Source: Pseudomonadota bacterium
GTDB taxonomy: Bacteria > Pseudomonadota > Gammaproteobacteria > Steroidobacterales > Steroidobacteraceae
Assembly: GCA_021851405.1 (NCBI GenBank)
Contig: JAJZDW010000004.1
Location: 62,295 to 126,294 of the forward strand
Length of the DNA stretch: 64,000 nt
Direction: 5' to 3'
The notes below the pieces were generated by a model that did no database searches, was not told the DNA's origin, and was given only the letters and a program-made list of their open reading frames with translations. Both the position numbers and the translations under genes were made by a program. Of this stretch, positions 29,234 through 44,595 are shown piece by piece; position 1 is the first letter of the stretch; each line of letters opens with the position of its first letter.

Positions 29234-29986
29234 TTACAGCGGCCGGTAGCGGAAGCGCGCGACGAGCCGATGCTCGCCGCAGGGGTAGATGACCCGGACG
29301 TGGGTGATCCGCTGCGCATCGCGCCAGGTGTTGCGCTCGATTGCGAGGCAGGCCGTGTCCCGGCGAATCGCCAGCCAGCGCGCGATGTCGGCATCGGCGT
29401 TCAGGGCCCCGATCTGGTGCTCGGCCTCCGTCCACGGAATGCGCTGCAGCAGCCACCGGCCTGGTGAGATGGCCCGGAACCGTTCGGTCCGCGCTTCCGG
29501 GACGGCCCGCAGGTTGATGAGCCGCTCCTCGAGCGCATGGGGCCGGCCGGAGGCGCGATGCAGGCCGGTCAGCGCCAACACCGGTGTGCCGAGCGACACG
29601 CCCAGAGTCCCGGCGTCCCGGGCCGTGGCGCGGCGAATACGTCGTGCCAGGGACTCATACGCGTAGGGAATGCCTGCGGCGAGCAGCTCCGCCTCGATGT
29701 CGTGGATTTCGAGTACCGATTCCTGCGGGCGCGGCATGTTCACGGTGGTGCCTGCGCGCCGCCGCCGCGTGACCAGCCGCTGTTCAGCCAATGCGCCGAG
29801 CGCCTTGCCGATGGTCATGCGTGCGCAGCCGAACGCCCGCGCCAACTCGTGCTCGGACGGCAGTCGGTGACCGGCGGGCCACTCGCCGGAGACGATCTTC
29901 TGCCGCAGCGCGTCATAGATCTCGCGGGACCGGGGCACGGTGCCCGTGCGTGCCAGGGAGGATGCCGCGCCGCCTTTCATCGTCAT
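29234..29986 (-). CDS. hutC: Histidine utilization repressor, GntR/HutC family
   Basis: YDALRQKIVSGEWPAGHRLPSEHELARAFGCARMTIGKALGALAEQRLV plus UTRA domain; within hut locus. Confidence 0.9.
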   Translation of the reverse strand: MTMKGGAASSLARTGTVPRSREIYDALRQKIVSGEWPAGHRLPSEHELARAFGCARMTIGKALGALAEQRLVTRRRRAGTTVNMPRPQESVLEIHDIEAELLAAGIPYAYESLARRIRRATARDAGTLGVSLGTPVLALTGLHRASGRPHALEERLINLRAVPEARTERFRAISPGRWLLQRIPWTEAEHQIGALNADADIARWLAIRRDTACLAIERNTWRDAQRITHVRVIYPCGEHRLVARFRYRPL

Positions 29987-31353
29987 GCCGTCTGCAGGAG
30001 GCGGCTCAACGTTCGGCGATAGGCGGCGTCGATCCGGTCGCGGTCTTGGTGTCTGCCGTTCTTTACGACGTGCTCGCCGCCGGCGATGACGTCCTTGATC
30101 AGCGAGCGGCCCGAGGCAAACACCCAGGTATCGATCGCGCAGTCCGTGGTGCGTCCGGTCAGATCGGGATGCTGGGCATCCAGTCCGATGAAGTCCGCAC
30201 GGCATCCCGAGGCGATGGCGCCCACCGGCAGCGCGAGCGCCTGGGCGCCTCCGCGCAAGGCCTCTTCGAGCAGGCTCGCGCCGCTCGAGGGCTGATCGGG
30301 GCGCGCCAGCACATTGCGCGCCCGGCGCGCCAGGCGCTGTGCGTACTCCAGTTGGCGCAGTTCGCCGGCGGCATCGAGCCGGATGTGCGAGTCGGTGCCG
30401 ATCCCCCACCGGCCTGCCGCCTGCGCATAGGCGAGCGAGGGGAAGATGCCATCGCCCAGATTCGCCTCGGTCACCGGGCACAGGCCGGCCACTGCACCGC
30501 TGTGCGCCAGTTCGCTCGTCTCCGCGTCCGTCAGGTGGGTGGCGTGCACGAGGCACCAGCGCTCGTCGATGCTGGCATGGCGCAGCAGCCACTCCACCGG
30601 GCGTAAGCCCGTGAACGCCACGCAATCCTCGACCTCCTGCGTCTGCTCCGCGGCGTGAATGTGCACCGGGCCCAGCGGGTGCTGTGCCAGCAGCCGCGCC
30701 AGGTGCGCGCCGGTGACCGCCCGCAGCGAGTGCGGCGCGATGCCGACATTGCGCGCGCCGCTCGTGGGAACGGCGGTGCGTATCCGCGCGGTGATGCGCT
30801 CGAACTCCTCGAGGTCGGTAATGAAGCGCCGCTGTCCGGCGGTGGGCGCGACTGCGCCGAACTGACTCGATTCATAGAAGACGGGCAGGAGGGTCAGTCC
30901 GATGCCGGTGGTATCGGCGGCGGCCGCATGGCGTAGCGCCAGCTCCGCCGGGTCCTGATACAGGTTGCCGCGAGGATCGCGGTGCAGGTAGTGGAACTCC
31001 CCGACCGAGGTGAACCCGGCCTCGAGCAGATCGGCATAGGTGTAGGTGGCGATGACCTGAAGATCGTCGGGGTCGAGGCGCTCGAGAAAGCGGTACATGA
31101 GCTCGCGCCAGGACCAGAAGTCGTCCGTACCCCTCGGTCCGCGCCGCTCCGCGAGGCCCGCCATGGCGCGCTGGAAGGCATGACTGTGCAGGTTCGGCAC
31201 GCCCGGCAGCGCGAGTGCCAGACGCAGGTCCTCAGGGGTGGCGGCCGCGCCGCAGGCCACCTCGCAGATCAGTCCGGCGCGTACCGTCACGCGCACGTTG
31301 CGCCGCCACCCCGCGGACAGCCGTGCGGTGTCGAAGAAGAATGTCCGGTTCAT
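29983..31353 (-). CDS. hutF: Formimidoylglutamate deiminase
   Basis: Amidohydrolase: LPGVPNLHSHAFQRAMAGLAE, HIHAAEQTQEVEDC, GIGTDSHIRLDAAGELRQLEY. Confidence 0.92.
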   Translation of the reverse strand: MNRTFFFDTARLSAGWRRNVRVTVRAGLICEVACGAAATPEDLRLALALPGVPNLHSHAFQRAMAGLAERRGPRGTDDFWSWRELMYRFLERLDPDDLQVIATYTYADLLEAGFTSVGEFHYLHRDPRGNLYQDPAELALRHAAAADTTGIGLTLLPVFYESSQFGAVAPTAGQRRFITDLEEFERITARIRTAVPTSGARNVGIAPHSLRAVTGAHLARLLAQHPLGPVHIHAAEQTQEVEDCVAFTGLRPVEWLLRHASIDERWCLVHATHLTDAETSELAHSGAVAGLCPVTEANLGDGIFPSLAYAQAAGRWGIGTDSHIRLDAAGELRQLEYAQRLARRARNVLARPDQPSSGASLLEEALRGGAQALALPVGAIASGCRADFIGLDAQHPDLTGRTTDCAIDTWVFASGRSLIKDVIAGGEHVVKNGRHQDRDRIDAAYRRTLSRLLQTA

Positions 31354-31393
31354 GTTGCGCTCGGTCCGGTCGCGCCCCCGGGGGGGTTCCGCA

Positions 31394-31409
31394 ATATGTC
31401 TAGGCATAT
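31394..31409. promoter_or_regulatory. Candidate HutC operator 1 (ATATGTCTAGGCATAT)
   Basis: 16-bp near-perfect palindrome with TGnCTAGnCA core in hutF/hutI divergent intergenic region. Confidence 0.7.
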
Positions 31410-31413
31410 TATG

Positions 31414-31429
31414 ATTTGGCTAGGCAAAT
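31414..31429. promoter_or_regulatory. Candidate HutC operator 2 (ATTTGGCTAGGCAAAT)
   Basis: 16-bp near-perfect palindrome sharing the TGnCTAGnCA core, centre 20 bp from operator 1. Confidence 0.7.
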
Positions 31430-31444
31430 GAGAAGGCCCTGGCA

Positions 31445-32647
31445 GTGCAATTCGATCGTTTGTGGCGCGGTGCGACCCTGGCAACACTCTCGCCGCGGCT
31501 GCCGGGCATCGGTCTGATCGAGCGTGGCGCGCTCGGCGTCACGGCCGGACGGATCGTGTTCGCCGGTCCGGCCAACGAACTGCCCGCAGGCGCTCATGCG
31601 CGCGAGGACGTCGATCTCGACGGGCGCCTGGTAACCCCGGGTTTGATCGACTGCCACACCCACATCGTCTTTGGCGGCGAGCGCAGCGCGGAATTCGAGA
31701 TGCGTCTCGCGGGAGCCGACTACCAGAGTATCTCCCGTGCCGGCGGCGGCATTCTCTCCACCGTACGCGCCACACGCGCCGCCCCGGAGCAGACGTTGCT
31801 CAGCACGGCCGCGGAGCGGTTGCGCGTGCTGATGGGTGAGGGCGTCACCACGGTCGAGATCAAGTCCGGCTACGGTCTAGAGGCGCAGCAGGAGTTGCGC
31901 ATGCTGCGCGTGGCGCGGGCGCTCGGACGCGAATTGCCGCTCGGGGTGGTCACGACGCTGCTCGCTGCGCACGCCGTGCCGCCGGAGATGGACCGCGGCG
32001 CGTACCTGCGCAGTATCCGCGAGGACATGATTCCGCGGGCGGCGGCCGAGGGCTTGGCCGACGCCGTCGACGGCTTCTGCGAGGGCATCGCCTTCAGCGC
32101 CGCGGAGCTGCGGGAAGTGTTCACGGCGGCGCGCCATCACGGTCTGCCGGTGAAGCTGCACGCAGACCAACTCTCCGACGGCGGCGGTGCATCGCTCGCG
32201 GCGGAATTTCAGGCCCTGTCGGCCGATCACCTGGAATGGACGAGCGAGGCGGGCGTCGCGGCGATGGCGCAGGCCGGCACCGTTGCGGTGCTGCTGCCGG
32301 GCGCGTTCTATTGTCTGCGCGAGCGGCAGCGTCCGCCCCTTCAGGCGCTGCGCCGACATGGCGTGCGCATCGCGCTCGCCACCGACTGCAATCCCGGGAC
32401 CTCGCCGCTGCTCTCGATGCTCATGGCGATGAACCTCGGTGCGATTCAATTGGGTCTGACCGTCGAGGAGACACTGGCGGCGGTGACTCGCGAGGCGGCC
32501 TGCGCCCTCGGGCGCCAGAGCGACCTCGGGACGCTCGAGCCCGGCAAGACCGCTGACCTGGCGATCTGGAACGCCACCCGAGCGGCCGAACTCGTGTACT
32601 GGATCGGCCGCAATCCCCTGTATGCCCGCATTTGGAGGGGCCATTGA
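31445..32647 (+). CDS. hutI: Imidazolonepropionase
   Basis: GTG start with AGAAGG upstream; [42 protein letters not shown]. Confidence 0.94.
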
Positions 32648-34185
32648 CTTCCATCGTGATGACACCCGGCCGGGTTCCGCTGGCCGATTGGGCCGCCATT
32701 TACCGCGGCCGTCCCGTTGCCCTCGATGAGCGCTGCTATGCCTCGATCGCGCGCGGCGCAGAGGCCGTCACGCGCATCGTGGCGCGCGGGGAGCCCGTCT
32801 ACGGGATCAACACCGGATTCGGCAAGCTCGCCAGCGTGCGCATCGAGGCGGCCGATCTGGCTCGTCTGCAGCGCAATATCGTGCTGTCACACTGTGTCGG
32901 GGTGGGCGAGACCATGCCCGCATCCGTCACGCGGCTGATGTTGGCGCTGAAGATCGCCAACGTCGCGCAGGGCGCCTCGGGGGTGCGCCCGGAAACGGTT
33001 CGACACCTCTGTGCGCTGCTCGAGCGTGACCTGCTGCCGATCGTCCCGGCCCAGGGCTCCGTGGGCGCCTCGGGCGATCTGGCGCCGCTGGCGCACCTGG
33101 CCGCCGTGCTGATCGGCGTCGGGGAAATCCGCCGACCGGACGGAACGCGCGCGCCGGCCACGCAGGCGCTGCACGAGGCGGGACTGGCGCCGCTGACGCT
33201 CGCGCCCAAAGAGGGTCTGGCGCTCCTGAACGGCACGCAGTTCTCGACGGCCAACGCGCTCGCCGCCTTGTTCGACATCGAGACGGTGTTTCAATCCGCA
33301 CTGGTCACCGGCGCGCTGTCGACGGAGGCCGCCAAGGGCTCCGATACCCCCTTCGATGCACGCATCCACGCCCTGCGCGGTCATCGCGGCCAGATCGAAA
33401 CCGCCGCCGCGCTGCGCGCGCTCATGGCCGGCTCAGCGATCCGTGATTCGCACCGCACGGCCGACCCGAGAGTCCAGGACCCATACTGCCTGCGCTGCCA
33501 GCCGCAGGTGATGGGCGCGGCGCTCGATCTGTTGCGCCACGCCGCCGGCACGCTCGCGTGCGAAGCCAATGGCGTGTCGGACAACCCGCTGATCTTCCCC
33601 GAGGCCGATGAGGCGCTCTCCGGCGGGAATTTCCACGCCGAGCCGGTGGCGTTCGCGGCCGACGTCATGGCGCTGGCGCTGTGCGAGATCGGCTCGCTCT
33701 GCGAGCGACGCATCGCCATGCTGGTCGACCCGGCGCTCTCCGGGCTGCCGGCCTTTCTCACCCCGAGTCCAGGCCTGAACTCCGGGCTGATGATGCCGCA
33801 GGTGACCGCCGCGGCACTGGTGTCCGAGAACAAGCAGTGCGCGCATCCGGCCAGCGTCGACTCGATTCCAACCTCGGCCAACCAGGAAGACCATGTGTCG
33901 ATGGCCGCGCACGCGGCGCGCCGCCTGCACCAGATGACCCGCAACGCCGCGGCGATCGTCGGCATCGAGCTGATTACCGCAGCGCAGGGCTGCGACTTTC
34001 ACCGCGGTCTGCGCTCGAGCAAGGTGCTCGAAGCGGTGCGCAGCGCGGTGCGCACGCGTATCCCGCCGCTCGGCGAGGACCGCTATCTGCATACCGATCT
34101 GGAGGTCGCCGCGGAGCTGGTTCGTGAGCGGGCGCTGCCGCGGGCGGCCGCCGACGTGTCACTGCCCGCACTGGAGCCGACATGA
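32644..34185 (+). CDS. hutH: Histidine ammonia-lyase
   Basis: [27 protein letters not shown] (MIO Ala-Ser-Gly), [39 protein letters not shown] start overlapping hutI stop inferred. Confidence 0.95.
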
Positions 34186-35009
34186 CCGAGTGGCTGGAAG
34201 TCGAGCGCGGCGACGCGCCGCTCGTGGTCAGCTTTCCGCACACGGGTACGCAGCTTCCGGCGCCGATCGCCGACCGGCTCATCTCGCCCTGGCTCGCCCG
34301 CAAAGACACGGACTGGTATGTCGATCGGCTCTACGCGATGGCGCTCGCGCTCGGGGCCACCACGGTGCGCACGGCCATCAGCCGCACGGTGATCGACGTG
34401 AACCGGGACCCATCGGGCGCCTCGCTCTACCCGGGTCAGAACACCACCGAGCTGTGTCCGACCCATACCTTTGACGGGGAGCCGCTCTACCGCGAGGGCG
34501 AGGCGCCGGAGGCGGCCGACATCGTCGCACGGCGCGCGCAGTACTTCGAGCCGTATCACGCGGCACTCGCGGCTGAACTCGAACGGCTGCGCGCCGAGCA
34601 CGGCCGGGTCGTGCTGTACGACGCGCACTCGATTCGCTCGCGCGTGCCGCGACTGTTCGACGGGGAGCTGGCGCACCTGAACCTCGGCACGAACCGCGGC
34701 ACGAGCTGCGCACCGGCGCTGCGGCGGGCCCTCGAGCAGGCGTGCGAGAGTCCGAGCTTTACGCTCGTCACCGACGGCCGCTTCGTCGGCGGCTGGACCA
34801 CGCGGCACTACGGCTGCCCGCAGCGCGACGTACACGCCGTGCAGATGGAGCTCGCCTGCCGCAGCTACCTCAGCGAGCCGGCCGTCCCCGGCACCGGCAA
34901 CTGGCCGCCGCCGTTCGAACCGGCGCGCGCCGCGCCGTTGAGCCACGTGCTGCAGCGGGCCCTCAGTGCCTGTCTGGATTTCGCCCACTCTGCAACGGGA
35001 GTCGCCTGA
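34182..35009 (+). CDS. hutG: N-formylglutamate deformylase
   Basis: [47 protein letters not shown] overlap with hutH. Confidence 0.92.
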
Positions 35010-36721
35010 TGAGCGCAGATCGCAAGCCCCGGACCCGCCTCGACACCACCCGGGTCATTCACGCCCCTACCGGCACGACGCTCACGGCGAAGAGCTGGCT
35101 CACCGAGGCGCCGCTGCGCATGTTGATGAACAATCTCGACCCGGCGGTGGGCGAGCGGCCGCAGGAGCTCGTGGTGTACGGCGGGATCGGCCGCGCCGCC
35201 CGCGACTGGGAGAGCTACGACACCATCGTTGCGACGCTGCGCCGGCTCGAGGCGGACCAGACTTTGCTCATTCAGTCGGGCAAGCCGGTCGGCGTGTTCA
35301 CGACGCACGCCGACGCACCACGGGTGCTCATCGCAAATTCCAACCTCGTGCCGCGCTGGGCGACCTGGGAGCACTTCAACGAGCTCGATCGCAAGGGCTT
35401 GATGATGTACGGGCAGATGACGGCGGGCTCGTGGATCTACATCGGCAGTCAGGGGATCGTCCAGGGAACTTACGAGACATTCGTCGAGATGGGACGGCGG
35501 CATTACGACGGGACGCTCCAGGGGCGCTGGCTGCTCACGGCCGGCCTCGGTGGCATGGGCGGCGCGCAGCCGCTCGCGGCGGTGATGGCCGGTGCCTCCT
35601 GCCTGGCGATCGAATGCCAGCGCTCGCGCATCGAGATGCGCCTGCGCTCGGGCTATCTCGACCACGCCACGGAGCGTCTCGATGAGGCAGTGGAGATCGT
35701 GCAGCGTGCCTGTGCCGAGGGCAAGGCGGTGTCGGTCGGATTGCTCGGCAATGCCGCCGACGTGCTGCCGGAATTGTTCAAGCGCGGTGTGCGGCCCGAT
35801 CTGCTCACCGATCAGACCTCCGCGCACGATCCGCTGAACGGCTACCTGCCCATCGGTTGGAGTGTCGAGCACTGGCTTGAGATGCGTGAGCGCGATCCGC
35901 AGGCCGTGACGCGCGCCGCCAAGGCGTCGATGGCCGTGCACGTGCGCGCCATGCTCGAGTTTCATGCGGCCGGCGTGCCGACCGTGGACTACGGCAACAA
36001 CATTCGCCAAATGGCGCTCGAGGAGGGCGTCAAGAATGCATTCGACTTCCCCGGCTTCGTGCCGGCATACATCCGCCCGCTGTTCTGCCGCGGCGTCGGA
36101 CCGTTCCGCTGGGCCGCGCTGTCCGGCGATCCGCAGGACATCTTCAAGACCGACGCGAAGGTCAAGGAGCTGCTGCCGCAGGACAAACACCTGCACCACT
36201 GGCTCGACATGGCGCGCGAGCGCATCCACTTCCAGGGACTGCCGGCGCGCATCTGCTGGGTCGGGCTCGGCGACCGGCATCGTCTCGGTCTCGCCTTCAA
36301 CGACATGGTGGCACGCGGGGAGCTGAAGGCCCCGGTGGTGATCGGCCGCGATCACCTGGACTCCGGTTCGGTGGCCTCGCCGAACCGTGAGACTGAGGCG
36401 ATGCGCGACGGGTCCGATGCGGTGTCCGACTGGCCGCTGTTGAACGCTCTGCTCAGCACCGCCTCGGGCGCGACGTGGGTTTCTCTGCATCACGGTGGCG
36501 GTGTTGGAATGGGATTTTCCCAGCATGCCGGCCTGGTCATCGTGTGCGATGGCACGGCGGCGGCGGCACGGCGCATTGCGCGCGTGTTGTGGAACGATCC
36601 GGCGAGTGGCGTGATGCGGCATGCCGATGCCGGTTATCCGCAGGCGATGGCCTGCGCGCGCGAGCAGGGGCTCGATCTGCCGGGGATTCTCCCGGATCCG
36701 ACTCGAACACCTCCCGCGTGA
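35009..36721 (+). CDS. hutU: Urocanate hydratase
   Basis: [63 protein letters not shown]. Confidence 0.95.
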
Positions 36722-36765
36722 CATATGAGGGTGCGGACGTGACATAAATAGCGCCCGCGCCGACG

Positions 36766-36795
36766 CGCGATGCTGCGTTATGTACGCAGCACGCG
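36766..36795. other. Inverted repeat/hairpin downstream of hutU
   Basis: TGCTGCG-TTATGTA-CGCAGCA perfect 7-bp arms, extendable with a bulge; no T tract. Confidence 0.4.
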
Positions 36796-36835: not shown

Positions 36836-36864
36836 TTGACTCGCGCGGCCCCTGCCTCGACACT
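36836..36864 (+). promoter_or_regulatory. Candidate sigma70-type promoter for the riboswitch transcript
   Basis: TTGACT (36836-36841), 17-nt spacer, GACACT (36859-36864), predicting a start near 36871, just 5' of the aptamer. Confidence 0.4.
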
Positions 36865-36867
36865 GCA

Positions 36868-36950
36868 CGCAGTGTAAAGGGCAAACCCGTCGAAAGACGG
36901 GGACGCAAAGCCACCGGTCTTCGGGTCAATCCCATGACGGCGGGGCCGCC
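36868..36950 (+). ncRNA. c-di-GMP-I (GEMM-I) riboswitch aptamer
   Basis: AAAGGGCAAACCCGTCGAAAGACGGGGACGCAAAGCCACCGG...ATGACGGCGGGGCCGCC: conserved GGGCAAACC, stem CCCGTC-GAAA-GACGGG, GGACGCAAAGCC and the 3' motif. Confidence 0.92.
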
Positions 36951-37039
36951 ACGATCGCGCTGCAGGCGCATCGCAAGCTTCCTCCGTCTCCAGGGAACGC
37001 ACCGTCGGCCGGGGCACCACGACCGAGCGTCCAAGAGAC

Positions 37040-38518
37040 ATGACACCAGCGGAAAATCTGGCGCCGCTCCCGGAGACCGGCGCGCCATCATCGGTCGGCC
37101 TCGCCGCCGAGGCGGGTCCGTTCGTGATCAACCTGTGCTCCTCGAGCACGCCCATGGCGCTGCCGCGCGCCGACCTGCCCGAACTGAGCCGCTTCACGTT
37201 CTTCGTGAGCCGCCGCTTCGAGGAAGGCCGCGAGCGGTTCCGTCTGCACATGGGATTCTTCACCACTCAGACCGAAGCGGAGAGCTGGCTCGGGCTGGTG
37301 CGCGAGATTTATCCGGGCGCCTGGGCCGGCGAAGCGCCCGGGAAGAAGCTGCGCGCCCGCGCCGTGGCGGATGCCGAGGCGCAGGCGGCCCATGCGGCCG
37401 GCCCGCATTCGCTCGCGCCCCAGGTCGAGCCGCCGGTCGAGGCACCGGTCGAGACACCGGCCCCGCTGGCGCTCTCGCTCGTTGAGGCTCCCGAAGCATC
37501 GCAGACGGTACCGACGCTGCATCCGCCTGCTGAGGCGAAAGCCGCACCCGCATCCGCATCCGCATCCGCATCCGCACCCGCGCCTGCGCCTGCGCCTGCG
37601 TCCGAGCCTGCGCCCGCGCCAGCCCCTCTCCGCGCGGCGGTCCCGCCGTCGCGCGCCGCCGCCGGCCCTGCGGGACGTGCCTCCGCGGAACCGACCCGCA
37701 CACCGACCGTGTTCGGGAATTCCAACATCAAGGAAGTCTTGGCGTCCCTCGATGAGCCTCTGGAGGCGACCGGCGCGACCCGCGCATTGCCGATTCCCGA
37801 GGCGGCGCTCTCCGATGCCCAGGCGCTGCAGTACCTCGAAGGGCGTACCCCCGAGGCGCTCGCCAAGCCGGCCGCTTTCGCCGTGCAGCTGAAGTGGTCG
37901 GTGCAGCCGATCGCATTTGAGAAGCTGCCGCCGCTGGCGATCTTCAGCGCCTACACGCTGTACTGCGTCGAGGGCAGCCGCGAGGGCCGCAAGTGGTACG
38001 GGCTGCGCCTGGGATTCTTCAACGATCCGATCTCCGCCAAGCAAGTTGCGGGCTACGTCCGTTCGGAATTCCCCTCGGCCGCCGTGGTGCCCGTGAGCGG
38101 CGATGAGCGCCAGCGCGTGAGCGGGGAGTCCGGCGCGCCGCCGCCGCGCTCGGCCCCGCTGGCCGCACAGACCGTGGACCACGAGTTCAAGTTGTTCGAC
38201 GAAGAGGCATCGGCTCGCGCCGGCGCGCCGCACGCGAGCGCGGCTGCGCCGCCGCCGAAGGCGCCGGTGCACGAGCTGCGGCCGGCGGCCATGGCCAAGC
38301 GAGCCTCCGGGGGCGGCAAGGTGCACGCGCGTGAGCGCCGCGCACCGCAGACGCTGGAGGAGACTTTGGAGATTCTCGGTGCGCACGAACTGACCATCGA
38401 AGATCGGCGCGACGAGGCCGGCGATGCGCGTGGTTCGGGCGGGGCCCGCAAGGTGGAGAAGAGCACGCCGTTCACGCGGCTGCTCGAGCGGTTGGGCGAG
38501 CGAGTCCGCAAGAACTGA
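37040..38518 (+). CDS. Dual SPOR-like repeat protein with Ala/Pro/Ser-rich linker, downstream of c-di-GMP riboswitch
   Basis: Two homologous segments: FTFFVSRRFEEGRERFRLHMGFFTTQTEAESWLGLVREIYPGAWA and YTLYCVEGSREGRKWYGLRLGFFNDPISAKQVAGYVRSEFPSAAV; no obvious signal peptide or TM helix. Confidence 0.75.
   Translation: MTPAENLAPLPETGAPSSVGLAAEAGPFVINLCSSSTPMALPRADLPELSRFTFFVSRRFEEGRERFRLHMGFFTTQTEAESWLGLVREIYPGAWAGEAPGKKLRARAVADAEAQAAHAAGPHSLAPQVEPPVEAPVETPAPLALSLVEAPEASQTVPTLHPPAEAKAAPASASASASAPAPAPAPASEPAPAPAPLRAAVPPSRAAAGPAGRASAEPTRTPTVFGNSNIKEVLASLDEPLEATGATRALPIPEAALSDAQALQYLEGRTPEALAKPAAFAVQLKWSVQPIAFEKLPPLAIFSAYTLYCVEGSREGRKWYGLRLGFFNDPISAKQVAGYVRSEFPSAAVVPVSGDERQRVSGESGAPPPRSAPLAAQTVDHEFKLFDEEASARAGAPHASAAAPPPKAPVHELRPAAMAKRASGGGKVHARERRAPQTLEETLEILGAHELTIEDRRDEAGDARGSGGARKVEKSTPFTRLLERLGERVRKN
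37544..37620 (+). repeat. Imperfect hexanucleotide tandem repeat (GCATCC/GCACCC/GCGCCT) encoding (AS)n(AP)n
   Basis: gcaccc gcatcc x4 gcaccc gcgcct x3 gcgtcc gagcct gcgccc. Confidence 0.85.
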
Positions 38519-38865: not shown

Positions 38866-41800
38866 TCAATCCGCGTCGCAGCGCGTCGCGAGGAACTGCG
38901 CGAGCACCCGCCCGGTGTGCGAGTGCTTGGCGCGGCGCGCCACCGCAGCCGGAGGACCTTGCGCGACGAGCCTTCCGCCGCGCTCGCCCGCCTCCGGACC
39001 CATGTCCAGGATCCAATCCGCCTCGGCCATCACATCCAAGTTGTGCTCCACCACGACCACGGTATTGCCGGCATCGACCAGTCGGTGCAGTACGTGGAGC
39101 AGCTTCTCGACATCGGCCATGTGCAGCCCCACGGTCGGCTCATCGAGCACATAGAGTGTGTGCCGTGCCGCGCGCGCCGCGACCCCGGGGCGCTCCGGCG
39201 GCCCCGGCTCACGCACCTTGGCGAGTTCCGTGACGAGCTTGATGCGCTGCGCTTCGCCGCCGGAGAGCGTCGGGCTCTGCTGGCCGAGCGTCAGATACCC
39301 CAAGCCGACATCCTGCAGCAGCTTCAGCGCGTGGTGGATGCGCCCATGCGCGGCAAAGAACGGCACCGCTTCGTCGACATTCATCATCAACACATCGCCG
39401 ATGTTCTTGCCGCGCCAGAGCACCGAGAGCGTCTCGGCGCTGAAGCGCCGGCCGGCGCAGACATCGCAGAGCACCTTCACATCCGGCAGGAAGCTCATCT
39501 CGATGGTCTGTACGCCCTGGCCTTCACAGGCCTCGCAGCGCCCACCGGCGGTGTTGAAGGAAAAACGGCTCGCGGTGTAGCCGCGCAGGCGCGCTTCGCT
39601 GGTGGCCGCGAAGATTCGCCGGATGTCGTCCCAGAATCCGATGTAGGTCGCCGGGCAGGAGCGCGGGGTCTTGCCGATCGGCGTCTGATCCACCTCCAGC
39701 ACCCGCCCGAGGTGCTCCAGTCCGCGCACCGCGCGACAGCCGGCCAGCTCGCTGCGGCGCGGCCGGCCCGCACGCGGCGCGCTCCTGGCTCGAGCCGCCT
39801 TATCGGCCGGGCCGAGCAGGCGGCGCAGATTGGTGTAGAGCACGTCCCGCGCAACGGTCGACTTGCCCGAACCACTCACTCCCGTGATCACCACGAGTCT
39901 CTCGAGCGGGATCTGCACATCGCCCTTGACGTTGTGCAGCGAAACATCCTGCAACGTCAGGTGCGGGGTCTTCGCATTCGTTGCACGGCGCGGCTCGGCC
40001 GGATGACGCAACGGTCGGCGCAGGAAGCGCCCGGTGATGGAGCGGGGGTTGCGCATCAGTTCCTTCACCGTTCCGGCGCCGACGATCTGCCCGCCCTGAA
40101 CGCCGGCGCCGGGGCCCAGATCCAGGATGTGATCGGCGCGGCGGATCGTATCCTCGTCATGCTCCACGACCACCAGCGTGTTGCGGTGGCTGGCGAGCTC
40201 CCCGAGCGCATCGAGCAGGATCTCGTTGTCGCGCGGATGCAGGCCGATGGTCGGCTCATCGAGCACGTAGCACACGCCCTGCAGGTTCGAGCCGAGCTGC
40301 GCGGCCAGCCGGATGCGCTGGGCCTCGCCCCCGGAGAGGGTCGGTGCCGAGCGGTCGAGCTGCAGGTAACCGAGGCCGACGCGCTCGAGAAACGCCAATC
40401 GCGAGCGGATCTCGGCGAGGAGGTCGCGCGCGATCTGCCGTTCGCGCCCCGAGAGCTTCAGCCGGCGGAAGAATTCCGCGGCGCGTCCCACCGGCTCGAG
40501 GGCCAGCGCGGCGATGGAGCGTTCGCGAAATCGCACGCTGAGCGCCACCGGGTTCAGGCGCTGGCCCGTGCAGGCCGGACAGGGCTGCGGCTCGTCTTCG
40601 AGCCAGTCATTCCACCAGTGTTCCTCGCCGCTCTGCTCGGCGTCGAATCCCGCCATCGCCACACCCGTGCCGTAGCAGCTCTCGCACCAGCCGTGCTTGG
40701 AGTTGAATGAGAACAAACGCGGATCGGGTTCGGCGAAGCTGCGCCCGCACGACGGACACGCCCGCTTGGTGGAGAACACGGTGACGCGCGCGGCAGGGGG
40801 CGCGAGCACGTGCACCAGGCCTTTGCCGAAATCCAGCGCGCGCGTGAGCGCCTGGTGCAGTTCGGTGTCGGTGCGCGCACCGATCTCGATGGTGGCCACC
40901 GGCAGCTCGATCGTGTGCTCCTTGAAGCGCGAGAGCCGTGGCCACTTCGCGGTGGGCAGCGCGGTGCCGTCGACACGCAGGGTCTTGAACCCCTTCTTGT
41001 GCGCCCACTTGGCGAGGTCCGTGTAATAGCCCTTGCGCGCCACGACCAGCGGTGCGAGCAGTTCGATGCGCTTGCCACGGTACTCGCGCAGCAGCCGCGC
41101 GGCGATTGACGCCGGGCTCTGCGGTTCGATCGCGAGGTCGCATTCGGGGCAGAACTGCGTTCCGAGCTTCACGTAGAGCAGGCGCAGGAAGTGATAGATC
41201 TCCGTCAGAGTCGCCACCGTGCTCTTGCGCCCGCCGCGGCTGGTGCGCTGCTCGATGGCGACCGTCGGCGGAATGCCGAAGATCGCGTCCACGTCCGGAC
41301 GGGCCGCCGGCTGCACGAACTGACGCGCGTACGCGTTCAGAGACTCCAGGTAGCGGCGCTGACCCTCGTTGAACAGAATGTCGAAGGCGAGTGTCGATTT
41401 GCCGGAGCCGGACACCCCGGTGATCACCGTGAATCGATTGCGCGGGATGCGCGCATCGATGCTCTTGAGATTGTGCTCACGGGCATTGTGAATGACGATG
41501 TCGTGGCGCGCGGCCGGGTCAACCAGCGCTCGGCTCGGGACCGGCTCGGCGACCGTGGCGACTGACGGCACGGCCGTCGGCTCTGCGGCCAGGGAGAGCT
41601 CGTATTCCACGAGCGCCCGGGCGGTGTGCGACTCCGGGTGCGCGCGTACCTCCGCCGGCGTACCGGTGCAGACGATGGTGCCGCCTTCCTCGCCGCCTTC
41701 CGGGCCGAGGTCGATGATCCAGTCGCTCTCGCGGATCACATCGAGGTTGTGTTCGATCACGAGCAGCGAGTGGCCCGCGGCGAGCAACTTGCGAAACGCC

Positions 41801-44595
41801 ATCAGCAGCCGCGTCACATCCTGGAAATGCAACCCCGTCGTGGGTTCATCGAACAGGAACAGCTTGCCTTTGTGCGTGATGCTCGAGAGCACCGAGCCTG
41901 CCTGGGCCAGATGTCCGGCGAGCTTCAGCCGTTGTGCCTCGCCGCCGGAGAGCGTTGGCACCGGTTGACCGAGGGCCACATATTCCAGGCCGACGTCCTC
42001 GAGCGGCGCCAGTCGGGCGCAGATCTCGCGCGAATCGCGAAAGAACTCCAGCGCCTGCGTAACGGTCATCTGGAGCACTTCGGCGATATTCGCGCGCCGG
42101 CCATCGGCGCCCTCGCGACGGATCTCGAGCACCTCGTCGCGGTAGCGGCGGCCGTCGCAGTCGGGGCAGCGCAGATACACATCGGAGAGGAACTGCATCT
42201 CCACGTGCTCGAAGCCGTTGCCGCTGCAGGTCGGGCAGCGTCCGTTGCCGGAGTTGAAGCTGAAGGTACCCGCGGTGTACTTGCGCTCGAGTGCGGCGGG
42301 CTCCGCGGCGAACAGCGCCCGAATGGCGTCGAATGCGCCGACGTAGCTGGCCGGGTTGGAGCGCGTCGTGCGGCCGATCGGACTCTGGTCGACCATGACG
42401 GCATCGTCGATGAGTTCCGCGCCGGCGAGCGCTGCAAACGTCCCGGGCGCCTCGGTCGGCTTGCCGTGATATTTCAGCAACGCCGGGAAGAGCACATCCT
42501 CGATCAGCGTGGATTTGCCGGAGCCGGAAACCCCGGTGACGCATACCAGGCGTTTCAGCGGGATGCGCACCTCGAGGTTCTTCAGATTGTGCTGTGTGAC
42601 GCCGCGCAGCTCTATCCAGCGGTTCGAGCGTGCCTCCGCCACGACCTCACCCGGCGCGGCCGTGCGCGGGCTCGCACCTTCGGCCCGTTCGCTGCCGACT
42701 CGCCTGCGGCCGCTGAGGTACTCCCCGGTCACGGAGTGTGCGCTGCGGCGGATTTCGCGCGGCGTGCCGAAGAAGACGATGTCTCCGCCGCGCTCCCCGG
42801 CGCCGGGGCCCAGATCGAGGATGCGGTCGGCCTCGAGCATGATCTGCGGATCGTGCTCGACGACCAGCAGCGAGTTACCGGCGTCGCGCAGCCGCTTCAT
42901 CACCGTGATGACCCGCTGCATGTCGCGCGGGTGCAGACCGATCGACGGTTCATCGAGCACGAACAGCGTATTGACCAGCGAGGTGCCGAGCGCCGTAGTG
43001 AGGTTGATGCGTTGCACCTCGCCGCCCGAGAGCGTGCGCGACTGGCGGTCGAGCGTCAGGTACCCGAGGCCGACCTCGGCGAGGTAGTCGAAACGCGCGC
43101 GGATCTGCTCGAGTAGCAGGTCGGCCGCCTCATCGAGCGGTTTCGGCAGCCGCAGCGCGCCGAAGAATTCCCGAGCCCGGCTTACCGGCAGCAGCATCAG
43201 ATCGTGCAGCGAGAGTCCCGGCAGACTCTGGCGCGTCGCCTCGCTCCACTGCGTGCCGCGTGGCTGGAAGCGCGGCGCGGCGCCGAGGGTCGCGTTGGCC
43301 ACGTCATGGTCGCCGACGCGCCACAGCAGACCTTGCGTCTTCAAGCGCGCTCCGCCGCAGGTCTCACATGGAGTGTAGGCGCGATAGCGTGACAACAGCA
43401 CGCGCACGTGCATCTTGTAGGAGCGGCTCTCGAGCCAGGCGAAGAATCGCTTTGCGCCGTACCAGACGCCCTTGCTCCATTCGCCTTCGCCCTCGATCAC
43501 CCAGTCGCGCTGCTGCGCGGACAGATCACGCCAGGGGGTATCGAGCGGGATGGCGCGCTTGCGCGCGAATTTCTCCAGGTCCTGCTGACATTCCGCGTAG
43601 GACTTCGTCTGCCACGGCTTGATGGCGCCGCCGCGCAGCGTCTTGCCGTCATCCGGCACCACCAGGCCGTAGTCCACGCCGATCACTCGGCCGAAGCCGC
43701 GGCAGGTCTCGCAGGCGCCGAGCGGCGAGTTGAACGAAAAGAGACTGGGTGAGGGCTCCTGGTACGACAGGTCGCACTCGGCGCAGTGCAGGCCACTCGA
43801 GAAGCGCCACACGGCGAGGGTGTTGGGCGGATCGGCGTCATCGACGGCGTGGATAGTGACCTTGCCGCGGCCCACCCGCAGCGCCGTTTCGAGCGCCTCG
43901 AGCACGCGGCTGCGCTCGGTACGCCCGGCGCGCAGACGGTCCTGGATCACCTCGAAGGTCACCGCCGGGGCCGGCGCGGTCTTGCGGCGGCCCCGTGTGC
44001 CGGCGGGCGGGGGCGCGCTCGGGCGCGGCGGGGGTTCGAGGAAGCGGGTGTACCCCTGCTTCTCGAGCAGGACGCGCACCTCTTCGGTCGTGAAGTTTCC
44101 CGGCACTTCAACCGGGAACGTGACCAGCAGGCGCGGATCCCCCGCGGCCGCCGCGCGCTCGAGCAGTTGCTGACGAATGGTCTCGGCACTGTCGCGGCGC
44201 ACCGGGTGTCCGCAGTGCTGGCAGTGCAGCACCGCGGTGCGGGCGAAGAGCAGTTTGAGGTGATCGTTCAACTCGGTCATCGTGCCGACCGTGGAGCGCG
44301 AAGTGCGCACCGGGTTGGTCTGGTCGATGGCGATGGCCGGCGGAATTCCCCCGACGGTGTCGACCTGCGGCTTGTCCATGCGGTCGAGGAACTGGCGCGC
44401 GTACGGCGAGAATGTCTCCACGTAACGACGCTGGCCCTCGGCATAGAGCGTGTCGAACACCAGGGACGATTTGCCCGAACCTGACACGCCCGTCACCACG
44501 ACCAGCTCGTTGAGCGGGATATCGAGGTCGAGGTTCTTCAGGTTGTTCTGGCGTGCGCCGCGTACGCGGATGACGTCTCGAGGGGCGTCGGTCAT
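38866..44595 (-). CDS. uvrA: Tandem-duplicated (double-length) excinuclease ABC subunit UvrA, 1909 aa
   Basis: Four Walker A motifs (GVSGSGKSS/T), four LSGGEAQR/LSGGEVQR signatures, two C-terminal zinc fingers (CPTCSGNG..CPDCDGRRY and CEACEGQG..CDVCAGRRF); halves meet near 41520-41600. Confidence 0.93.
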   Translation of the reverse strand: MTDAPRDVIRVRGARQNNLKNLDLDIPLNELVVVTGVSGSGKSSLVFDTLYAEGQRRYVETFSPYARQFLDRMDKPQVDTVGGIPPAIAIDQTNPVRTSRSTVGTMTELNDHLKLLFARTAVLHCQHCGHPVRRDSAETIRQQLLERAAAAGDPRLLVTFPVEVPGNFTTEEVRVLLEKQGYTRFLEPPPRPSAPPPAGTRGRRKTAPAPAVTFEVIQDRLRAGRTERSRVLEALETALRVGRGKVTIHAVDDADPPNTLAVWRFSSGLHCAECDLSYQEPSPSLFSFNSPLGACETCRGFGRVIGVDYGLVVPDDGKTLRGGAIKPWQTKSYAECQQDLEKFARKRAIPLDTPWRDLSAQQRDWVIEGEGEWSKGVWYGAKRFFAWLESRSYKMHVRVLLSRYRAYTPCETCGGARLKTQGLLWRVGDHDVANATLGAAPRFQPRGTQWSEATRQSLPGLSLHDLMLLPVSRAREFFGALRLPKPLDEAADLLLEQIRARFDYLAEVGLGYLTLDRQSRTLSGGEVQRINLTTALGTSLVNTLFVLDEPSIGLHPRDMQRVITVMKRLRDAGNSLLVVEHDPQIMLEADRILDLGPGAGERGGDIVFFGTPREIRRSAHSVTGEYLSGRRRVGSERAEGASPRTAAPGEVVAEARSNRWIELRGVTQHNLKNLEVRIPLKRLVCVTGVSGSGKSTLIEDVLFPALLKYHGKPTEAPGTFAALAGAELIDDAVMVDQSPIGRTTRSNPASYVGAFDAIRALFAAEPAALERKYTAGTFSFNSGNGRCPTCSGNGFEHVEMQFLSDVYLRCPDCDGRRYRDEVLEIRREGADGRRANIAEVLQMTVTQALEFFRDSREICARLAPLEDVGLEYVALGQPVPTLSGGEAQRLKLAGHLAQAGSVLSSITHKGKLFLFDEPTTGLHFQDVTRLLMAFRKLLAAGHSLLVIEHNLDVIRESDWIIDLGPEGGEEGGTIVCTGTPAEVRAHPESHTARALVEYELSLAAEPTAVPSVATVAEPVPSRALVDPAARHDIVIHNAREHNLKSIDARIPRNRFTVITGVSGSGKSTLAFDILFNEGQRRYLESLNAYARQFVQPAARPDVDAIFGIPPTVAIEQRTSRGGRKSTVATLTEIYHFLRLLYVKLGTQFCPECDLAIEPQSPASIAARLLREYRGKRIELLAPLVVARKGYYTDLAKWAHKKGFKTLRVDGTALPTAKWPRLSRFKEHTIELPVATIEIGARTDTELHQALTRALDFGKGLVHVLAPPAARVTVFSTKRACPSCGRSFAEPDPRLFSFNSKHGWCESCYGTGVAMAGFDAEQSGEEHWWNDWLEDEPQPCPACTGQRLNPVALSVRFRERSIAALALEPVGRAAEFFRRLKLSGRERQIARDLLAEIRSRLAFLERVGLGYLQLDRSAPTLSGGEAQRIRLAAQLGSNLQGVCYVLDEPTIGLHPRDNEILLDALGELASHRNTLVVVEHDEDTIRRADHILDLGPGAGVQGGQIVGAGTVKELMRNPRSITGRFLRRPLRHPAEPRRATNAKTPHLTLQDVSLHNVKGDVQIPLERLVVITGVSGSGKSTVARDVLYTNLRRLLGPADKAARARSAPRAGRPRRSELAGCRAVRGLEHLGRVLEVDQTPIGKTPRSCPATYIGFWDDIRRIFAATSEARLRGYTASRFSFNTAGGRCEACEGQGVQTIEMSFLPDVKVLCDVCAGRRFSAETLSVLWRGKNIGDVLMMNVDEAVPFFAAHGRIHHALKLLQDVGLGYLTLGQQSPTLSGGEAQRIKLVTELAKVREPGPPERPGVAARAARHTLYVLDEPTVGLHMADVEKLLHVLHRLVDAGNTVVVVEHNLDVMAEADWILDMGPEAGERGGRLVAQGPPAAVARRAKHSHTGRVLAQFLATRCDAD

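Follow-up and report, generated by a model that had tools for sequence, protein, structure and literature searches.

The c-di-GMP-I (GEMM-I) riboswitches, covered by the Rfam family RF01051, are a well-known class. In its type example, Vc2 from Vibrio cholerae, the ligand is contacted by nucleotides G20, A47 and C92 (PMC4744006). Known riboswitches of this class act in either direction, ON or OFF (PMC9262584). Variants specific to cGAMP exist (PMC6456294), and the G20A change is compatible with cGAMP binding (PMC6274999); such GEMM-Ib riboswitches were described in Geobacter, where pilM is among the regulated genes (PMC6456294, PMC9262584). For Bc1 from Bacillus thuringiensis, masking of the ribosome-binding site and the start codon in the presence of the ligand was described (PMC11218506). 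The receptor of the P2 tetraloop is known to vary within the class: the UAA/AU core in P3 resembles the 11-nt GAAA receptor with an adenosine platform, and Vc2 is listed with a minor-groove receptor (PMC3494683).

Here we describe an element from a 64-kb window, that is, the whole stretch of DNA that was analysed (64,000 nucleotides). It shares with Vc2 the three-helix fold, the GAAA-capped P2 and the G20/A47/C92 contacts. It differs from Vc2 and other members of RF01051 in that its transcript appears to start inside P1, the receptor core in P3 is UUC/AU, and its target gene had no earlier link to the class in the literature searched. The Geobacter GEMM-Ib riboswitches have the same fold, and siblings of the window aptamer from the same genus also precede pilM, but position 20 of the window aptamer is G rather than A. 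Bc1 also has a c-di-GMP-I aptamer; its expression platform is up to 220 bp long and contains two terminators, whereas that of the window is 86 nt long and contains none. In our preferred reading (probability about 0.87), the element is a canonical c-di-GMP-I riboswitch with a promoter just upstream, which changes ribosome access to the single gene 37040–38518. What is new is the conserved promoter–aptamer–gene cassette, its uncharacterised target and the clade-specific receptor.

Class, fold and predicted ligand of the aptamer

The cmscan search of the whole window yielded matches to one RNA only, at 36870–36954 on the forward strand. The first-pass annotation had assigned a GEMM-I riboswitch to 36868–36950; the locus stands, and the bounds have to be shifted by 2–4 nt relative to the Rfam match. 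The RF01051 model applied to the whole genome matched positions 36870–36953 with 73.7 bits (E-value 1.8e-14), far above the gathering score of 35, so the class proposed by that annotation agrees with the covariance-model search that it had suggested. The RF03167 model (c-di-GMP-I-GGC, the same clan) scored 71.2 bits in the genome, also exceeding its gathering threshold of 59. Each of the two models matched one copy in the 3.52-Mb assembly, at the same site. As the same element is found in the orthologous position in dozens of relatives, a chance match is ruled out. The element is by class a genuine, canonical c-di-GMP-I riboswitch, as judged from sequence and covariance models.

According to the sequence and the cmscan consensus structure, the 5’ strand of P1 (GUG, 36872–36874) is paired with CAC at 36950–36952. 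The P2 hairpin (36886–36901) consists of CCCGUC (36886–36891), the GAAA tetraloop (36892–36895) and GACGGG (36896–36901), and thus is the 6-bp stem with the GAAA cap reported at first pass; the other strings quoted there are likewise all in place. P3 occupies positions 36910–36946. The ligand-contact positions were assigned by helix position using published descriptions (PMC6274999, PMC4744006). They are G36880 (G20 of Vc2), A36907 (A47, also placed by the cmscan alignment) and C36949 (C92). The same canonical triplet is observed in 112 of the 117 parsed sibling aptamers.

In the cmscan output the window match (36871–36954, forward strand, 71.2 bits, E-value 7.4e-15) is reported as RF03167, since the label is given by the better E-value of two overlapping clan matches. 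Taken literally, this would place the aptamer in the I-GGC variant class, with a different ligand preference. However, the bit score is higher for RF01051 (73.7 vs 71.2), and the A47 position is occupied by A36907, whereas the RF03167 consensus has G; we infer that this G is what “GGC” in the family name refers to. Given this mismatch, the RF03167 assignment is a label artefact, and membership in the variant class is hardly credible.

The three canonical contact nucleotides predict c-di-GMP rather than cGAMP as the ligand, the cGAMP type being characterized by G20A. A cGAMP-sensing aptamer of the GEMM-Ib type, an alternative that had been left open at first pass, has some background in its favor, given the published cGAMP-specific variants and four sibling aptamers with A at position 20 in other genomes of the genus. 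Nevertheless, position 20 is G in the window aptamer and in all its parsed orthologues. The genome encodes 28 GGDEF domains, and all readable GGDEF motifs, with a few weaker or degenerate ones left unparsed, have the canonical ND (Asp) and none has the Hypr serine. The Hypr serine is also absent from the motifs read in genome G001, which contains one of the G20A siblings. Hence the cGAMP reading is disfavored and we regard it as very improbable. As for the four G20A siblings themselves, three (L114, L164, L174) are located before M23 peptidase-like genes and one (L170) before a membrane-protein gene.

The GAAA tetraloop is combined with an altered sequence at the putative receptor. In all 23 aptamers of the window’s clade P3 reads CUUCGG...CCCAUGA, with the receptor core formed by UUC (36920–36922) and AU (36934–36935) in the window. 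The UUC/AU core is present in no other parsed aptamer; other GAAA-capped siblings mostly have CUAAAG, CUAAGG or CUACGG...CCUAUGA, and their core usually is UAA/AU. Comparison of these sequences shows that the clade has replaced UAA/AU by UUC/AU, which would eliminate the adenosine platform. Since receptor variation is known in the class, we consider UUC/AU to be a variant and not a new kind of receptor. This clade-wide change, together with the near-zero leader before P1, provides natural variants for studies of riboswitch folding. In siblings with GCAA or GUAA loops in P2 (L135–L139, L175, L176, L181), P3 is largely base-paired, replacing the internal-loop receptor; these aptamers precede genes of Ig-like lipoproteins.

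Promoter, gene cassette and genus-wide distribution

A promoter pattern, TTGAC(T/A/G)-17 nt-GA(C/A/G)ACT (TTGACW-N17-GAMACT), is found in all 47 orthologous leaders, ending 4–9 nt before the aptamer. In the window it is represented by the −35 box TTGACT (36836–36841) and the −10 box GACACT (36859–36864) on the forward strand. The −10 box differs strongly from the consensus, and for this reason the generic σ70 scan missed this conserved promoter. Given its distance to the aptamer, transcription is expected, from the spacing, to start at about 36871, inside P1. We also considered whether a hairpin at the 5’ end (ACACUG-CACG-CAGUGU) could compete with P1; this was rejected, as the −10 box makes up the 5’ half of the hairpin, which probably is not transcribed. 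Upstream of the promoter, most leaders of the window’s clade contain an inverted motif GACATAA ... TTATGTA (36739–36783), possibly an operator, followed by a conserved CTGAGA block.

The aptamer lies directly before the gene 37040–38518 orthologue in all 47 readable leaders; in one further leader, there is an assembly gap inside the aptamer. In the window the two are in the same orientation and the aptamer is separated from the ATG at 37040 by 86 nt, close to the 90 nt given at first pass. Each of the 30 named loci had exactly one cmscan match; in all 30 cases it was on the coding strand and belonged to this class. The records bear the names of Gammaproteobacteria or Steroidobacteraceae MAGs. 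Relatives of the gene are encoded in 55 of the 58 genomes of the genus, including all 28 genomes with a completeness of at least 90% and a contamination of at most 5%. Outside the genus, 23 genomes of the order were searched and yielded a single weak match. The neighbors common to the window’s clade are hutU upstream and genes of a Zn-ribbon protein and UvrA downstream. In the sister group, hutU is absent upstream and the promoter–aptamer–gene unit persists, so this unit is what is conserved. In every relative that could be tested, the riboswitch and its target gene are kept together, across a genus of uncultured bacteria related to Steroidobacteraceae. Control of the hut operon was considered and rejected, since the operon lies upstream and is present only in the window’s clade.

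Two features of the neighborhood may be mentioned. A complete-looking histidine-utilisation cluster (29983–36721) is located upstream, with HutC- and HutF-like proteins encoded on the reverse strand and HutI, HutH, a HutG-like protein and HutU on the forward strand. The UvrA-like protein (38866–44595, reverse strand, 1909 aa), whose gene adjoins the SPOR-like gene in relatives too, appears to consist of two UvrA units joined within a single reading frame.

The remaining c-di-GMP-I aptamers found in the genus are located before pilM-like, M23 peptidase-like, Ig-like surface lipoprotein and membrane-protein genes, and also before a shorter SPOR-like paralogue. These genes, of which pilM was verified by PF11104 and the others were named by sequence inspection, constitute a typical c-di-GMP regulon. 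In the window’s genome and most of its clade, the present aptamer is the only c-di-GMP-I aptamer left, and pilM is kept despite the loss of the others. Many aptamers are found approximately 290–390 nt upstream of pilM in the genus and the order (19 loci, such as L117, L125 and L129). In the window’s genome pilM is located at G000:C64:11900–12922, with no aptamer at that place. The search for c-di-GMP-II riboswitches gave no match, and the controls likewise remained without a match.

Leader and level of control

The terminator scan found no intrinsic terminator on the forward strand between the aptamer and the gene, as had been noted at first pass. For this reason, the likely level of control would be translation or mRNA stability; translational control specifically is plausible.

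The aptamer is directly followed by a hairpin (CGAU-GCGC ... GCGC-AUCG, 36952–36973, forward strand), whose GCGC/GCGC core is kept in most orthologous leaders. The ribosome-binding region GCGUCCAAGAGACAUG (37027–37042, forward strand) is nearly invariant in the window’s subclade. A possible anti-Shine-Dalgarno (anti-SD) strand, GUCUC..GGGAACGC (36986–37000, forward strand), pairs with 37027–37039 and would mask the start region. Compared with shuffled sequences, this helix has a z-score of −2.1 in the window, and −3.4 and −3.8 in two relatives carrying the compensatory change of GUCUC/GAGAC to AUCUC/GAGAU. It is not kept in a sister subclade, and SD occlusion across the clade is no better than chance (mean z-scores −1.2 and −0.7). 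Thus, masking of the SD and AUG in the window’s subclade is partly supported by these comparisons.

In predicted folds of the ligand-free state, the 3’ strand of the aptamer, GACGGCGGGG, pairs with the pyrimidine-rich leader segment 36978–36990. This pairing was judged against dinucleotide shuffles and rejected as a candidate switch, as shuffled leaders pair at least as well (mean z-scores +0.67 and +0.12). Modelled ligand binding produced no trend in SD accessibility in the window’s group (0.33 to 0.32). In the sister group the mean accessibility decreased from 0.35 to 0.22, with an increase in four of the 23 leaders. These values come from free-energy models without tertiary terms and are weak. 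We lean slightly towards the ligand turning the gene OFF.

The lack of a convincing expression platform in the pairing and accessibility tests could mean that the aptamer is vestigial, i.e. that it folds and no longer controls the gene. The loss of other c-di-GMP-I aptamers from most genomes of the window’s clade, with pilM kept, and the change of the receptor from UAA to UUC point in the same direction. On the other hand, all 23 leaders of the clade retain the core nucleotides, the promoter spacing and the position, whereas the leader sequence downstream has diverged; this indicates selection on the aptamer. We consider a vestigial aptamer to be very improbable.

With the canonical riboswitch as the preferred reading, the following mechanism may be proposed. 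The promoter would start the mRNA within P1, so that the aptamer is transcribed first. Binding of c-di-GMP at G36880, A36907 and C36949 would lock P1–P3, and this would alter ribosome access at the start region of gene 37040–38518. The output would be an uncharacterised double SPOR-like protein from the single downstream gene. Here, both c-di-GMP as the ligand and the translational level of control are what we infer.

The target protein

The target gene (37040–38518, forward strand) encodes 492 aa with SPOR-like domains at residues about 25–105 and 276–362, Ala/Pro-rich linkers and conserved C-terminal helices. No signal peptide or membrane segment is predicted, and the hydropathy profile contains no 19-residue stretch at the level of a membrane segment. 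The match to the Pfam SPOR family (PF05036) is below the gathering cutoff (17.6 vs 21 bits); among relatives of the protein, 14 of 18 match at E-value ≤ 0.1. Searches of NCBIfam and PDB sequences with the protein gave nothing useful. In the AlphaFold model the overall pLDDT is 53, and residues about 280–360 are modelled well (about 80–89). Foldseek ranks the SPOR domains of RlpA, DamX and CwlC highest, and for RlpA the match of its SPOR domain to the central domain has probability 1.00 and TM-score 0.71 normalized by target; the whole low-confidence model has no match at E-value ≤ 0.001. Hence the predicted structure of the central domain agrees with the SPOR fold. The protein differs from described SPOR proteins (RlpA, DamX, DedD, CwlC) in its score below the Pfam cutoff, the presence of two copies of the domain and the lack of a predicted signal peptide or membrane segment. 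We therefore describe the product as a soluble, uncharacterised protein that carries two SPOR-like domains.

The usual site of action of SPOR domains is periplasmic peptidoglycan, and for this reason an apparently cytoplasmic pair of SPOR-like domains is worth testing. Our guess is that the role of the protein is related to the envelope or the cell surface. The strict linkage to the aptamer is the first functional lead for this protein family, and it connects c-di-GMP signalling with an uncharacterised family in an uncultured lineage. A broader proposal would be that, within the genus, c-di-GMP signalling has this one riboswitch as its sole or core riboswitch output. It would then control a genus-restricted soluble double-SPOR protein acting in the cytoplasm and not on periplasmic peptidoglycan, with the aptamer formed from the first nucleotides of the transcript and the GAAA loop docking on a non-classical UUC/AU receptor. 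Taken as a whole, this proposal is doubtful. A long paralogue (783 aa, L229:1187–3538), encoded on a contig with no c-di-GMP-I aptamer listed, also has both SPOR-like units, along with long linkers of low complexity.
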